Assembly (NCBI GenBank): GCA_018993155.1
Contig: JAGKSX010000004.1
Coordinates: forward strand, 1-64,000
Length of the DNA stretch: 64,000 bases
Origin: Hydrogenophaga sp.
Lineage (GTDB): Bacteria > Pseudomonadota > Gammaproteobacteria > Burkholderiales > Burkholderiaceae_C
Direction: 5' to 3'
In this document: piece after piece, positions 12,773 through 29,649 of the stretch
Layout: each line of letters opens with the position of its first letter
How positions within the stretch are numbered: the stretch's first letter is position 1
The notes under the pieces: generated by a model
Seen by the model: the letters and a program-made list of their open reading frames with translations, nothing else
What the model was told of the DNA's origin: nothing
The model's database searches: none
Made by a program: the position numbers and the translations under genes

Positions 12773-13165
12773 TCATGGCTCCGCCCCCGTGAGGTTGGGG
12801 GGCAGGCGCGCGAGGATGCCGCTGCGCAGGCGCTCCGGCCGCGCGTTGCGCAGCAGGTTGCCGTCGCTCGCGGCCGCGTGCAGGCCGGCGCAGACGAGCA
12901 CGTGCTCCGCCGTCTCGGCATCGGGCACCAGATCGCCGAACAGGTAGGTGTGTTTGCCCGGCGCCTGAAAGGCCACCGAGCAGGCGCGCGAGCAGCTGCT
13001 GAGGCAGGCCATGCCCCGCACCCGCACCAGGGGCTCGGCGTTGCGCCCTTGCACGGCCTGCACGGCCTCGAACAGCAGCGCGCCGGCCGCCGGCTCCTCG
13101 CGCGAAGCGCCCGGGGGCCGGCAGGTGGTGCAGACGATCACTTCGGTGATGGGTGTCAGGGACAT
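12773..13165 (-). CDS. DUF1636 family metal-binding-like protein
   Basis: 130 residues. It opens with VIVCTTCRPPG and has a second Cys group MACLSSCSRACSVAFQ, then the thioredoxin-like-ferredoxin end HTYLFGDLVPD. The C-x2-C plus C-x3-C-x3-C pattern resembles a (2Fe-2S) ferredoxin-like or metal-binding fold. DUF1636 proteins recur beside cobN, cobW and cbtAB in proteobacterial B12 loci; no reaction is established. It lies between the VWA protein and cbtB, with a 16-base gap upstream. Confidence 0.8.
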   Translation of the reverse strand: MSLTPITEVIVCTTCRPPGASREEPAAGALLFEAVQAVQGRNAEPLVRVRGMACLSSCSRACSVAFQAPGKHTYLFGDLVPDAETAEHVLVCAGLHAAASDGNLLRNARPERLRSGILARLPPNLTGAEP

Positions 13166-13181: not shown

Positions 13182-13865
13182 TCAGGCCGGCAGGCGGTGT
13201 TCGGCCTGCCAGCGCTCGGCCCAGGCCGCGCACCGGCCCAGGGGCCGCAGAGGGTCGTCGAAATCCACGACGACGATGTGGCCCGCCGAGCCGGGGGCCA
13301 TGGGTTGTTCGAGCGTGCGGCCGTCGGTGAGCAGCCACAGGCAGTCGCCACCCGCCGCGCCGCGCTGCCGCTGCGTCTTGCGCAGCAGGCGATCGGCCTC
13401 GTTCAGGCAGGCCGACAGCGGTGTGCCGCCGCCGCCACCCACCGGCCGCACGCGCTCGCGGCCGGCCGCGCGGGCCGGGCCGGGTGGCAGCAACAGCTGC
13501 ACGCCCTGGCCGCCGAAGCTCAGCAGCGCCACGTGGTCGCCGGCGCGCGCAGCCTGCTCGATCAGGCGCGCGGCATAGCCCTTGGCCCAGGCCAGCCGCC
13601 CGCCCCGGCGCATCGAGCCCGAGGTGTCGAGCGCGATCAGGTGCAGCGGGGGCGTGCGCGGGCTCACCGGCCGGTGGCGCAGGTGCACGGGCGCGAGGCG
13701 CTGCGACCCTTTGGCCTGCAAGGTGCGCAGCCAGTGAATGCCGGCGCCCGCCGCGTCGGCCGGGCGCACTGCGTGCCGGGCCAGGCCCGGTTTCGGGGAG
13801 AGGTTCGGGGCAAGCCACCGCCGGCCGCCGCTCGCCATGGGCGCGCGCGGGCCGGGGTGGCTCAT
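13182..13865 (-). CDS. VWA-domain protein, BchD/ChlD C-terminal-like chelatase subunit
   Basis: 227 residues with a von Willebrand A domain. The metal-ion-dependent adhesion site is complete: DTSGSM near residue 80, GGTPLSACL near 150 (Thr), and LLTDGR near 180. The RLAPVHLRHRPV stretch before it matches the Mg-chelatase D subunit. It lacks the AAA+ domain that D subunits carry in front of the VWA domain. The ATG overlaps the ATPase stop (ATGA), and the upstream frame can enter this one by a -1 shift at the A7 run (13868-13874). The product may be made alone by reinitiation, as a 577-residue fusion, or both. CobT of classic cobaltochelatase is the functional equivalent. Confidence 0.85.
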   Translation of the reverse strand: MSHPGPRAPMASGGRRWLAPNLSPKPGLARHAVRPADAAGAGIHWLRTLQAKGSQRLAPVHLRHRPVSPRTPPLHLIALDTSGSMRRGGRLAWAKGYAARLIEQAARAGDHVALLSFGGQGVQLLLPPGPARAAGRERVRPVGGGGGTPLSACLNEADRLLRKTQRQRGAAGGDCLWLLTDGRTLEQPMAPGSAGHIVVVDFDDPLRPLGRCAAWAERWQAEHRLPA

Positions 13866-14914
13866 GCTTTTTTTGGGGGCCAGGCCCCCGTGTGTTTCAC
13901 CGACGCCATGGCCTCGGGCTGCGGCGGCAAGGCGCCCCAGTCGCCGTCGGGCTCGGTGCCGTTCGACGCCGCGGCGGCACCCTGCCCGCCCGCCGGGGCA
14001 TGGGAAGGACGGGACATCGGCGGCGTGGCGCTGTCGGGCGCGCGGCGGTGTGCCAGCGCGAGTTCGGCCACCGCGTCCACATCGGCCACGCCCACGTGGT
14101 CGCGCTGCTCCAGCGCGGCCAGGGCGCGCGCGGCGCGCAGCATGACGAGGTCGGCGCGGATGCCGTCGACACCGGCGGCCAGGGCGAGGTGCGCGGCGTG
14201 CTGCACCACAGCGTCCGGCCACGGCAGCTGCGCCAGCGCGGCGCGCGCGGCGGCCAGCGTGGCCACCAGCCGGGACTGCGCGGCGGCGTGTTCGGCCAGC
14301 AGCGCGTGCGGGTCGGCGTCGAAGGCCAGGCGTGCGCGCACGATGGCCTGGCGCTGCGCGGCATCGTCGGGGTTGGCGAGCGCCACCGACAGGCCGAAGC
14401 GGTCCAGCAGCTGCGGGCGCAGCTCGCCCTCTTCCGGGTTCATGGTGCCCACCAGCACGAATTGCGCGGCGTGCTGGCGCGAGACGCCGTCGCGCTCCAC
14501 CGTGTTCACGCCGCTGGCGGCCACGTCGAGCAGTGCGTCCACCAGCGCATCGGGCAGCAGGTTGACTTCATCGACGTACAGCACACCGCCGTGCGCGCGC
14601 GCCACCAGGCCGGGCGCGAGCCGCACCTGGCCGTCGCGCAGCACGTCTTCGAGGTTGAGCGTGCCCACCAGCTGTTCCAGGCTGGCCGCCAGCGGCAGCG
14701 TGACGAAGGGCGCCTGCGGCAGCAGCGCGGCCAGCGCGCGCGCCGAGGTGGACTTGGCCGTGCCGCGCGGCCCGCTGATGAGCACGCCGCCCATGCCAGG
14801 GTCGATGGCGGCGAGCAGCAGCGCGCGCTGCAGCGCGTCGTGGCCGACCAGGGCGGTGAAGGGAAAGGTGGCGTGGGACGCCGCGTGCAGTTCGGGCAAG
14901 GCGGTGTTCGTCAT
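13862..14914 (-). CDS. AAA+ ATPase, BchI/ChlI-like chelatase subunit
   Basis: 350 residues. FTALVGHDALQRALLLAAIDP is the standard I-subunit opening, the Walker A is SGPRGTAKS, Walker B is GVLYVDEVNLLPD, and FVLVGTMNPEEGELRPQLLDRFGL carries sensor 1 and the arginine finger. After the AAA lid comes a disordered P/A/G-rich tail of about 60 residues, typical of the linker in D subunits rather than the end of an I subunit. The frame ends in CCA AAA AAA GCA TGA, giving PKKA. Next to cobN and without cobS/cobT genes, it should provide the motor for cobalt insertion. The ATG overlaps the cobN stop. Confidence 0.88.
   Translation of the reverse strand: MTNTALPELHAASHATFPFTALVGHDALQRALLLAAIDPGMGGVLISGPRGTAKSTSARALAALLPQAPFVTLPLAASLEQLVGTLNLEDVLRDGQVRLAPGLVARAHGGVLYVDEVNLLPDALVDALLDVAASGVNTVERDGVSRQHAAQFVLVGTMNPEEGELRPQLLDRFGLSVALANPDDAAQRQAIVRARLAFDADPHALLAEHAAAQSRLVATLAAARAALAQLPWPDAVVQHAAHLALAAGVDGIRADLVMLRAARALAALEQRDHVGVADVDAVAELALAHRRAPDSATPPMSRPSHAPAGGQGAAAASNGTEPDGDWGALPPQPEAMASVKHTGAWPPKKA
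13868..13874 (-). promoter_or_regulatory. A_AAA_AAA slippery heptamer, candidate -1 frameshift site
   Basis: On the coding strand the zero frame reads CCA AAA AAA GCA TGA. A -1 slip on the two Lys codons re-pairs perfectly (AAA AAA) and continues AGC ATG AGC CAC into the VWA gene, joining both domains into about 577 residues. GGGGG (13885-13889) ends exactly ten bases upstream, able to pair with the anti-Shine-Dalgarno as in dnaX, and together with CCCCC (13875-13879) can also form a stem. Programmed frameshifting that makes small and medium subunits from chlD-type genes is known in cobalamin producers. Confidence 0.7.
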
Positions 14915-18697: not shown

Positions 18698-19762
18698 TCA
18701 GGCCACGCTGGTGTCGGTGCTCAGGGCCGACTGGAGTTCGTTCTGCAGCGTGTCGCGGTCGAGGTGGTCGCCGATGAACACCAGCCGCGTCGCGCGCGCG
18801 TCGTCGGCGCGCCAGGGCCGGTCGAAGTGGCTGTCGAAGCGCTGGCCCACGCCCTGCACCACCAGGCGCATGGCCGCGCCGGGCAGGGCCACGAAGCCCT
18901 TGACGCGGTAGATCTCGTGGCGCTGCACCAGGGCCACGAGCGCGTCCAGCAGGCGCTGGCGGTCTGCCACCTCCAGCGTGAGCGAGACCGAGTCGAACTC
19001 GTCGTGGTCGTGGTCCTCTTCCTCGTCGTGGTGGGTCTTGCGCTGGTCGATCACGTCTTCCACCGCGCGCTCCAGACCGAGCAGCACGCCCAGGTCCAGC
19101 TTGCCGTGCTGCGCATGCACCAGCTTCACGCCGGCCGGCGTCTCGGCGCGGATGATGGCCTCCACCTCGGCCAGCGTGGCGGCGTCCAGGCCATCGGTCT
19201 TGTGCACCACCACCAGATCGGCGGTGGCCAGTTGGTCCTCGAACAGCTCGGCCAGCGGCGAGTCGTGGTCCAGGTTCTCGTCGGCGCGGCGCTGCGCGTC
19301 CACCGCCACCGGGTCTTCGGCGAAGCGGCCGGCGGCCACGGCCGGGGCGTCCACCACGGTCACCACGGCGTCCACCGTGAAGGCGTTGCGCAGCGCGGGC
19401 CACTGGAAGGCCTGCACCAGCGGCTTGGGCAAGGCGAGGCCGGAGGTTTCGATGACCAGGTGGTCGATCTGGTCGCGGCGCGCGGCGAGCTGCTCCATCA
19501 CGGGCGCGAACTCTTCCTGCACCGTGCAGCACAGGCAACCGTTGGCGAGCTCGAACAGCTGGCCGTTCTCTTCGCCGTTCTCGTCGCAGCCGATGCCGCA
19601 GCCGCGCAGCAGCTCGCCGTCGATGCCGAGTTCGCCGAACTCGTTGACGATGACGGCGATGCGCCGGCCCTGCGCGTTCGTGAGCAGGTGGCGCAGCAGC
19701 GTGGTCTTGCCGGCACCGAGGAAGCCGGTGACGATGGTGGCGGGGATCTTGCGGGTTTGCAT
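18698..19762 (-). CDS. cobW: CobW GTPase metallochaperone
   Basis: 354-residue COG0523 G3E GTPase. The P-loop GFLGAGKTT is at residues 12-20, the metal-binding CxCC motif reads GCLCCT, and HKTDGLD is the guanine-specificity loop. A His/acid-rich segment (HHDEEEDHDHDEFD) precedes the CobW C-terminal domain and probably binds cobalt. The start MQTRKIPATIVTG follows AGGAG with seven bases spacing. CobW is thought to deliver Co(II) to CobN, the next gene. Confidence 0.94.
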   Translation of the reverse strand: MQTRKIPATIVTGFLGAGKTTLLRHLLTNAQGRRIAVIVNEFGELGIDGELLRGCGIGCDENGEENGQLFELANGCLCCTVQEEFAPVMEQLAARRDQIDHLVIETSGLALPKPLVQAFQWPALRNAFTVDAVVTVVDAPAVAAGRFAEDPVAVDAQRRADENLDHDSPLAELFEDQLATADLVVVHKTDGLDAATLAEVEAIIRAETPAGVKLVHAQHGKLDLGVLLGLERAVEDVIDQRKTHHDEEEDHDHDEFDSVSLTLEVADRQRLLDALVALVQRHEIYRVKGFVALPGAAMRLVVQGVGQRFDSHFDRPWRADDARATRLVFIGDHLDRDTLQNELQSALSTDTSVA

Positions 19763-19776
19763 CAGGGGTCTCCTAT

Positions 19777-20610
19777 TCAGGGGCGAGGGGGCAAGGCGAG
19801 CAGGCAATCGACCAGCATCTGCGCGGCCTCGCCCAGGCGGGGACCGGGGCGCGAGAGCAGGTCCATTCGGTCGGCGTCGAGCTGGCAGACCTGCTGGCGG
19901 CGCAGCGCCTGCAGGCCGGCCCAGCCGGGGCGCTCGGTCATGCCCGAGAGCGTGGACTGGGGGCCGATGATCAGATCGGGCGAGCGGCGCACCACCATCT
20001 CGGGGTTGACGCGCGGGAACAGGCCGGCGTCGCCGCTCACGATGTTGACGAGGCCGAGCCGCGCCACGGTTTCGCCGATGAAGCTTTTGGCGCTGGCGGC
20101 GGTGGGACCGATGCCGACCTCCACATACACCGTGCGGCCGCGCAGGGACGCCGGCACGCGGCGCGCGGCGGCGTCGAGCTCCTGGTCGATGCGCCGCACC
20201 AGTTCGAGGGCGCGCGCCGTCTCGCCCAGCGACTGGCCGAGCGCGAGCAGCATGCGCTTGAGGTCGGCGTGGGTGCGCGCGTCGAAGGTCTGCACCGGCA
20301 CGCCGAGTTCGGTCAGGCGCTCACCGGCGCGGCTGCGCGGCCCGAGCAGCACCATGTCGGGCCGCAGCGCCACGATGTGTTCGATCTGCGCATCGGCCAG
20401 GCCGCCGACCTTGGGCAGCTTGGACACGCTGCCCGGCCAGCTGGAATGGCGGTCGGTGCCGACCAGTTCGGCGCAGTGACCGAGCGCGCACACGGCCTCG
20501 GTGAGCGAGGGCGACAGCGTGACGATGCGGTGCTGCGCGAGCGCCGGCACGGCCATGCCGCCGAGCAGCCCCAGCATCGCCAGCGTTGGCACGGGCAGCA
20601 TGGCGCCCAT
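19777..20610 (-). CDS. BtuF-like periplasmic corrinoid/metal-complex binding protein (paralog 2)
   Basis: 277 residues with a signal peptide (hydrophobic core LAMLGLLGGMAVPALA, cleavage after about ALAQ). The PF01497 helical-backbone fold is shown by RIVTLSPSLTEAVCALG, LVGTDRHSSWP and LPKVGGLADAQIEHIVALRPD. It is close in pattern to the BtuF at 22964-23848 (SLTE..CALGHC versus SLTE..CELGQC) and probably arose by duplication. The start shares one base with the cobO stop (TGATG). A different corrinoid or a spare receptor for BtuCD are both plausible. Confidence 0.88.
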   Translation of the reverse strand: MGAMLPVPTLAMLGLLGGMAVPALAQHRIVTLSPSLTEAVCALGHCAELVGTDRHSSWPGSVSKLPKVGGLADAQIEHIVALRPDMVLLGPRSRAGERLTELGVPVQTFDARTHADLKRMLLALGQSLGETARALELVRRIDQELDAAARRVPASLRGRTVYVEVGIGPTAASAKSFIGETVARLGLVNIVSGDAGLFPRVNPEMVVRRSPDLIIGPQSTLSGMTERPGWAGLQALRRQQVCQLDADRMDLLSRPGPRLGEAAQMLVDCLLALPPRP

Positions 20611-28391: not shown

Positions 28392-28479
28392 GATGAAGAA
28401 ACAGACAGGAGACCCTCACCATCTTCCCCGACGGTGCATGGGCATCACGGTGGAGCGCCTGTCGCCAGACGCACCACCA

Positions 28480-28712
28480 CCTTGTTGGCCGGTATCCGGG
28501 CTGACAGACCGACCTCCATCGCCTTCCCAGATGACACGGTGTGTCGTCCAGTGGCTGTCGGATGGAGGCTGAGGACCGTTCGCGCACGCGCTCATGGCCA
28601 CTCGTCTGCTTACCGTTGCGGGGGCAGCGCAGGTTAGGTCCCATCCCTGGGGTGTGACCCTCCTGCTTCCCGTTGAACTGCGGCATGTGAACCACACCGC
28701 GAGCACCAACAA
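28480..28712 (-). promoter_or_regulatory. Cobalamin riboswitch upstream of btuB
   Basis: On the minus strand the conserved elements occur in the right order: GGTG (about 28709-28712), AACGGGAAG (28666-28674), GCCCCCGCAACGGTAAGC (28608-28625), GCCACTG, GGGAAGGCG, and the B12 box region GTCAGCCCGGATACCGGCC (28487-28505). This is the AdoCbl-type aptamer consensus. The remaining ~90 bases to the btuB ATG form the expression platform; no clear U-tract is seen, which favours control of ribosome access. It may govern the entire downstream run of minus-strand genes. Confidence 0.94.
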
Positions 28713-28774
28713 CCGGCATTCTACGGCGCGCGCACCCGGGGCAACCCTACAATGTGAAAACTTCGAGTCCCACC

Positions 28775-29394: not shown

Positions 29395-29470
29395 CGCGCC
29401 GCCGGTCACTGCGCGCGAATATATCGACCGATGGTCCTCGTGGGCCGCATGCAGCGCCTACAATTTGAAC

Positions 29471-29643
29471 TGTCTGCAGTGCGCGCCGGGCTTTATATTT
29501 CCTTGAACCAATGCTCATAGAGCCCGGGCTTGGTACATTGCGTGGCTGGTGCGAGCGTCTCGCGTCAGACGAACCCGAAGCCCCGCTGCCCTCGCCCACC
29601 TGAACCCCGGTTCAGGATGCCGGTCCGGCGGCACTTGCAGACA
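29471..29643 (+). ncRNA. ssrS: 6S RNA
   Basis: 173-base regulator that mimics an open promoter and binds sigma-70 RNA polymerase. The ends pair perfectly (TGTCTGCA at 29471-29478 with TGCAGACA at 29636-29643), continued by GTGC/GCAC and CGCCGG/CCGGCG after single bulges: the closing stem. The 3' half contains CACCTGAACC-CC-GGTTCAGG then CGGCGGCA, which matches the small hairpin and stem of E. coli 6S. A consensus-like -10 TACAAT (29459-29464) lies seven bases before the 5' end. Placement just after zapA is the classic ssrS location. Confidence 0.92.
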
Positions 29644-29649
29644 CCTTTC

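Follow-up and report, generated by a model that had tools for sequence, protein, structure and literature searches.

A well-preserved fs-chlD gene beside cobN in Hydrogenophaga, with a conserved candidate signal for -1 ribosomal frameshifting

Organization of the locus

The window, by which we mean the whole 64,000-nucleotide stretch of Hydrogenophaga DNA that was analysed, carries on its minus strand an open reading frame (ORF) for an AAA+ ATPase and, overlapping its stop codon, an ORF for a VWA protein (Table 1). The ATPase ORF matches the Pfam families AAA_5, AAA_lid_2 and Mg_chelatase, and the solved structures that score best against it are those of BchI/ChlI. By eye, it contains the sequences GPRGTAKST and GGVLYVDE, which we take to be the P-loop and the Walker B motif, respectively. 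The VWA part contains, again by eye, the sequence DTSGS, presumably the motif of that name, and its one solved relative at an E value of 0.01 or better is the BchD 60 kDa subunit (2x31).

The ATPase ORF ends with the codons CCA AAA AAA GCA TGA, which give the C-terminus PPKKA followed by the stop, and the run of seven adenines (A7) forms the heptamer A_AAA_AAA in this frame. When the two frames are joined at the heptamer, the product is made of 349 ATPase residues, one serine and the entire VWA ORF. An earlier note, made by a model from the sequence, had described this frame end and the phase of the A7, and had proposed that a -1 slip on A_AAA_AAA reads the whole VWA gene to give about 577 residues. 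Both points hold, on the minus strand and with a length of exactly 577 aa, as do the positions that it gave for a G5 ten bases upstream of the heptamer and for a C5 before the A-run.

The 3' end of cobN and the start of the ATPase gene overlap by 4 bases. Other genes in the window are cobW and those for a cobO-type adenosyltransferase, CbtA and a CobB/CobQ-type amidotransferase. A DUF1636 gene, which follows the VWA ORF here, also occurs downstream in the same orientation in 26 of the 122 relatives described below, many of which have short flanks.

Table 1. Features at the ATPase-VWA junction and neighbouring genes, in window coordinates
Feature	Position	Strand	Remarks
DUF1636 gene	12773..13165	-	Next gene downstream of the VWA ORF; PF07845, 4.2e-31
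VWA ORF, 227 aa	13182..13865	-	Read from the ATG overlapping the TGA; VWA_2 (Pfam); would be the C-terminal part of the 577-aa frameshift product
3' hairpin	13812..13863	-	Core GCCACC...GGTGGC; begins 4 nt after the heptamer; probable stimulator
Zero-frame TGA stop	13862..13864	-	One codon past the heptamer
Zero-frame AAA+ ATPase ORF, 350 aa	13862..14914	-	Probable small (ChlI/CobS-like) chelatase subunit; Pfam and solved-structure matches
Slippery heptamer A_AAA_AAA (A7)	13868..13874	-	In phase, at the end of the ATPase ORF
C5	13875..13879	-	Directly abuts the A-run
G5	13885..13889	-	Possible Shine-Dalgarno-like stimulator; ten bases between G5 and the heptamer
cobN, 1261 aa	14911..18696	-	Cobalt chelatase large subunit; TIGR02257, 1557 bits (cut-off 822)
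cobW	18698..19807	-	Next gene upstream of cobN; TIGR02475, 510 bits (cut-off 332)

Homologous loci

The homologues were drawn from named genomes, where the best 80 of 536 confirmed were taken, from 67 genomes of the genus, and from 299 genomes of the family with a threshold of E 1e-80 or better; four further stretches were added by place. This gave 122 junctions, of which 120 are distinct; the duplicate pairs are L004 with L091 and L010 with L123. The 400 bases around the junction are identical in L091, from the same-genus genome G009, and L004, from Hydrogenophaga intermedia. Names and similarity were used to sort the loci manually into three groups: a comamonad-like group (51 loci; the loci of family f1 plus L002-L008 and L010), a Pseudomonas-type group (44 loci, including a Paucimonas genome) and a group of Burkholderia and others (27 loci). 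The set consists of close relatives, many of them near kin of each other, and it favours conservation.

Several loci were set aside. The N-terminal part of L027 contains a stop; its junction also reads A_AAA_AAA_GCC_TGA, with the VWA in the -1 frame. Twenty loci at 45-48% identity (L092-L111) are probably bchI-type loci of phototrophs. Pieces of the window's own genome (L145-L154) were not counted as junctions.

Conservation of the slippery site, its phase and the stop

Taken alone, the site in the window proves little and is not beyond chance. The window contains two A7 runs, compared to 0.26 expected from shuffles, and 5 of 100 shuffles had at least two. In the 4.9 Mb genome, the pattern A7-GC-N-TGA occurs once, and a control pattern, the same read backwards, also occurs once. 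Chance is excluded because the heptamer recurs in the same phase across the junctions.

All 122 junctions have an in-phase heptamer: A_AAA_AAA in 76, A_AAA_AAG in 45 and C_CCA_AAA in one. Thus the A7 and phase on which the earlier note had built its proposal are retained as A_AAA_AA(A/G) in 121 relatives, with C_CCA_AAA in the other. The zero-frame stop follows 3 nt past the heptamer at 120 junctions and 24 nt past it at the other two (L140 and L141), which are still in phase; it is TGA in 83 and TAG in 39. The first lysine codon of the heptamer is AAA in 121/122, although AAA makes up just 152 of the 469 lysine codons found farther upstream in the ORFs.

The frame of the downstream part is likewise constant. 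By tblastn, a VWA match was detected in 120 of the 122 loci (87/89 in the first set and 33/33 in the second), always in the -1 frame; no VWA match was found in L016 and L058. The -1 frame stays open for at least 200 codons from the heptamer in 121/122. In L016 (Cupriavidus basilensis OR16), it ends after 67 codons and is followed by seemingly unrelated sequence, which we take to resemble an AbrB-type antitoxin; the break is an insertion or an assembly join.

The locus with C_CCA_AAA is L125 (genome G359), where this heptamer replaces the A-run in the same phase and a strong hairpin follows. Canonical slippery heptamers obey the rule X_XXY_YYZ. Since C_CCA_AAA fits this rule, L125 speaks for tandem slippage by the ribosome.

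RNA elements flanking the heptamer

A stable hairpin follows the heptamer, a feature that the earlier note had overlooked. The 77 nt that start one base past the heptamer fold with -42.9 kcal/mol (z -3.64), and none of 200 shuffles was as stable. Averaged over the 122 loci, the first 60 nt past the heptamer have an MFE of -34.3 kcal/mol, compared to means of -18.7 to -26.1 kcal/mol at offsets farther off than 60 nt. In 119/122 loci, the value after the heptamer lies below the locus's own mean at these distant offsets, and in 70/122 it lies below every one of them.

The position of the helix is also conserved. A helix of at least 6 bp starts 4-7 nt past the heptamer in 120/122 loci, compared to an average of 49% and a maximum of 90/122 at 55 control offsets. 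When at least 8 bp are demanded, the count is 93/122, compared to an average of 11% and a maximum of 33/122 at the same number of control offsets, and this test gives the stronger contrast. The two exceptions are L023 and L025, in which the outer stem at the tested place reaches just 5 and 4 bp, respectively. In L023, from a Candidatus Paraburkholderia, the signal may be weakening.

The two arms vary together, with GCCACC/GGTGGC, GCCATC/GATGGC, GCCTCC/GGAGGC, GCCCCC/GGGGGC, GGCATT/AATGCC and GGCATC/GATGCC as observed pairs. In an alignment of 40 Pseudomonas-type loci (39 distinct; L025, L067, L075 and L078 are the four of the 44 left out), 94.1% of cells pair, compared to at most 53.5% when the arms are slid, and 14 cells are changed on both sides, compared to 1.0 in shuffles. 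Further pair types in this alignment were no better than in shuffles (154/500). For the comamonad-like group, the count covers 29 loci (28 distinct) and leaves out the 20 of 49 distinct loci without a fixed 48-nt span; because loci were chosen by that span through their outer pairs, the count scores the inner helix only. The inner helix pairs in 131/168 cells, compared to 95.0 when shuffled and no more than 98 when slid; cells changed on both sides number 32, compared to 10.9 in shuffles. The hairpin was found in all three groups compared, and these compensatory changes show it to be conserved as a structure. It is probably the strongest stimulator at the junction.

Upstream of the heptamer, the window's G5 could form a duplex of about -8.6 kcal/mol with the anti-Shine-Dalgarno sequence. 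We scored a Shine-Dalgarno-like element as a duplex of -5 kcal/mol or better at gaps of 6-11, with 19 control places. The comamonad-like group has such an element in 39/51 loci (control mean 7.9, maximum 14). The Burkholderia-and-other group is marginal, with 12/27 (control mean 4.9, maximum 11), and the Pseudomonas-type group is unenriched, with 9/44 (control mean 8.4, maximum 44). The suggestion of the earlier note that G5 acts as a Shine-Dalgarno stimulator is thus partly supported, the element being clear only in the comamonad-like group. Its further suggestion, that G5 can pair with C5 in an upstream hairpin, was rejected as a conserved element, the pairing being kept in 7/122 loci.

Relation to cobalt chelatase

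Among families, TIGR02442 (putative cobaltochelatase) fits the 577-aa product best, although the score of 430 bits falls short of the curated cut-off (779); taken separately, the two ORFs match opposite ends of this model. Matches to the BchI-ChlI and BchD-ChlD families are also below their curated cut-offs: the 350-aa product scores 302 bits against TIGR02030 (BchI-ChlI; cut-off 467), and the 577-aa product scores 266 bits against TIGR02031 (BchD-ChlD; cut-off 500). Outside the locus, no match to TIGR02442 above 31 bits was found in the genome. For the classical partners of CobN, the genome gave no match to CobT and a best match to CobS of 35 bits, compared to a cut-off of 558.55, in an assembly rated 94.2% complete, in which absence is not certain. 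If the genome has no classical CobS or CobT, the fs-chlD gene would have to supply both subunits.

The association with CobN extends to the relatives. In 121/122, CobN is found upstream in the same orientation, within 262 bases in 115 and at 1.1-2.7 kb in six. For the remaining locus, L134, the fetched flank is short; its genome has CobN about 2.2 kb upstream. Among the 299 family genomes, the 32 that carry the ATPase (E 1e-80 or better) are, by eye, the same 32 that have a PF02514 match of more than 1225 bits; all other PF02514 matches listed in family genomes score 1120 bits or less. Because the linkage is to CobN, the enzyme is likely a cobalt chelatase, and the term ‘ChlD-type’, used in the earlier note for a BchD/ChlD-like layout, is right for the layout.

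Two same-genus genomes have a second copy of the gene (L143 in G042:C147 and L144 in G009:C44), 67-68% identical to that of the window. In both, CobN adjoins and the A7 signal is present.

Discussion

The locus has the features of an fs-chlD gene, namely a ChlI-like ATPase ORF followed by a VWA in the -1 frame, a conserved A-rich in-phase site and a downstream RNA structure. It also has those of a CobNST-type system, with CobN adjoining and no classical CobS or CobT found in the genome. We therefore consider it very probable (roughly 93%) that this is an fs-chlD gene, that is, a gene for a cobalt chelatase expressed with the help of programmed -1 ribosomal frameshifting.

Ribosomes staying in the zero frame would stop at the TGA and release the 350-aa AAA+ protein as the small subunit. 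A fraction would be paused by the hairpin that begins 4 nt after the heptamer, slip back by one base on A_AAA_AAA and go on to make the 577-aa AAA+-linker-VWA protein as the medium subunit. In this lineage, a Shine-Dalgarno-like contact at G5 probably assists the slippage. Both subunits would then join CobN, the product of the gene just upstream, in a complex that inserts cobalt during B12 synthesis. The earlier note had likewise proposed that a frameshift yields small and medium chelatase subunits from one gene beside cobN, and the conserved heptamer, phase, stop and VWA frame support this. So does the frameshifting in E. coli reporters described for genes of the published family (Antonov 2013, PMC3711429). 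Slippage in this organism and its rate are inferred; a related cassette carrying A_AAA_AAA gave 10% when measured in E. coli (PMC3711429).

An alternative is translational coupling, in which ribosomes terminate at the TGA and start again on the overlapping ATG, producing a free VWA protein, so that the locus yields two separate proteins and no fusion. The junction in the window offers the means, with an ATGA and the ATG of the VWA ORF at 13865, and the four closest same-genus loci (L083-L086) share the ATGA. Yet the stop is overlapped by ATG in just 8/122 junctions and by GTG in 3/122, and in 79/122 the VWA frame lacks any ATG, GTG or TTG within the stretch that opens 30 nt ahead of the heptamer and closes 45 nt past the stop. 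Coupling would also leave the phase of the heptamer and the hairpin unexplained. We consider coupling in place of a fusion very improbable, and the start-codon counts led us to reject reinitiation as a general route to the VWA. The earlier note had named free VWA as a possible third product. This is possible at the present locus and unlikely to be how the family makes its VWA.

A shifted product could also arise before translation or exist only on paper. A-runs can cause RNA polymerase to slip, and slippage during transcription of the A7 would yield mRNAs of the shifted frame. In its favour, the published efficiency rises with the length of the A-run (PMC3711429). However, 45/122 junctions have only six adenines followed by G and the C_CCA_AAA junction has no homopolymer, and a fixed codon phase with a conserved hairpin at near-fixed spacing fits slippage by the ribosome; we give transcriptional slippage even less credence than coupling. 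Homopolymers are error-prone in some sequencing methods, and the break in frame could be such an error or the decay of a former in-frame fusion. Fused in-frame relatives are indeed known elsewhere (PMC3711429). Against this, the VWA is in the -1 frame in all 120 loci where it was found, across many genera and assemblies, and the slippery site is kept at every junction, so many independent genomes share the position of the break. Sequencing error is excluded by this conservation, and error or decay together is the least credible of the explanations we weighed.

Programmed frameshifting by the ribosome thus remains our reading of the locus, and in the small clade formed by the window and L083-L086 it could be combined with reinitiation. 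There, the common ATGA might allow one junction to give a small subunit, a frameshifted medium subunit and free VWA, with G5 serving both slippage and reinitiation and so tuning the ratio of subunits. This extension is speculative, and we regard it as rather unlikely.

Earlier publications already describe this family, the frameshift in it and the connection to cobalt chelatase, and the locus adds little that is new in principle. Antonov 2013 described 23 magnesium-chelatase genes with -1 frameshifts, from Pseudomonas, Burkholderia, Delftia, Herpetosiphon and two archaeal genera; three of the genes gave 63, 40 and 10% frameshifting in E. coli reporters for A-runs of 11, 9 and 7 (PMC3711429). 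The same group later assigned the fs-chlD family to cobalt chelatase (Kuznetsov 2022, PMC9227772). In the literature searched, no other paper on this frameshift was recognised by title and abstract. Delftia is a comamonad. A 2020 article by Antonov in Mol Biol Evol is reportedly part of the work on fs-chlD and magnesium chelatase. The present locus is like the fs-chlD cluster in its ChlI-like ATPase with the downstream part in -1, its in-phase poly-A site, its downstream RNA structure and its likely use for a cobalt chelatase. It differs in nothing of principle and adds the Shine-Dalgarno-like element enriched in comamonad-like relatives.

Two other systems invite comparison. The E. coli dnaX gene also has an A-rich heptamer, a Shine-Dalgarno-like element about ten bases upstream and a hairpin a few bases downstream, and gives two products. 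The shift in dnaX shortens the product, whereas the shift at this locus would lengthen it, and the dnaX heptamer is A_AAA_AAG, as in Pseudomonas-type loci, in place of the A_AAA_AAA found here. The pairs BchI with BchD and ChlI with ChlD share with this locus an AAA+ small subunit and an AAA+-VWA medium subunit, and BchI/ChlI and BchD are its solved relatives. These pairs are encoded by separate genes, whereas at this locus the medium subunit would match the small one exactly in its ATPase part until the slip, and cobN is the adjacent gene.

We view the locus as a well-preserved fs-chlD gene, with frameshifting predicted from its sequence. It is a clean example of how ribosomal frameshifting can draw two enzyme subunits from a single gene, and the components of the signal are both recognizable and conserved. 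Genes of this kind had been annotated as two adjacent genes (PMC3711429), which makes the medium subunit easy to overlook. What the locus adds is modest: only the comamonad-like relatives show the Shine-Dalgarno-like element clearly, while the hairpin is present in all three groups, which together provide a natural set for comparing stimulators.

Two structured RNAs lie elsewhere in the window. A cobalamin riboswitch (28470-28725, minus strand; Rfam RF00174, 65.2 bits) is found upstream of a TonB-dependent receptor gene and may control downstream B12 genes, and a 6S RNA is found at 29468-29647 on the plus strand (Rfam RF00013, 60.6 bits).
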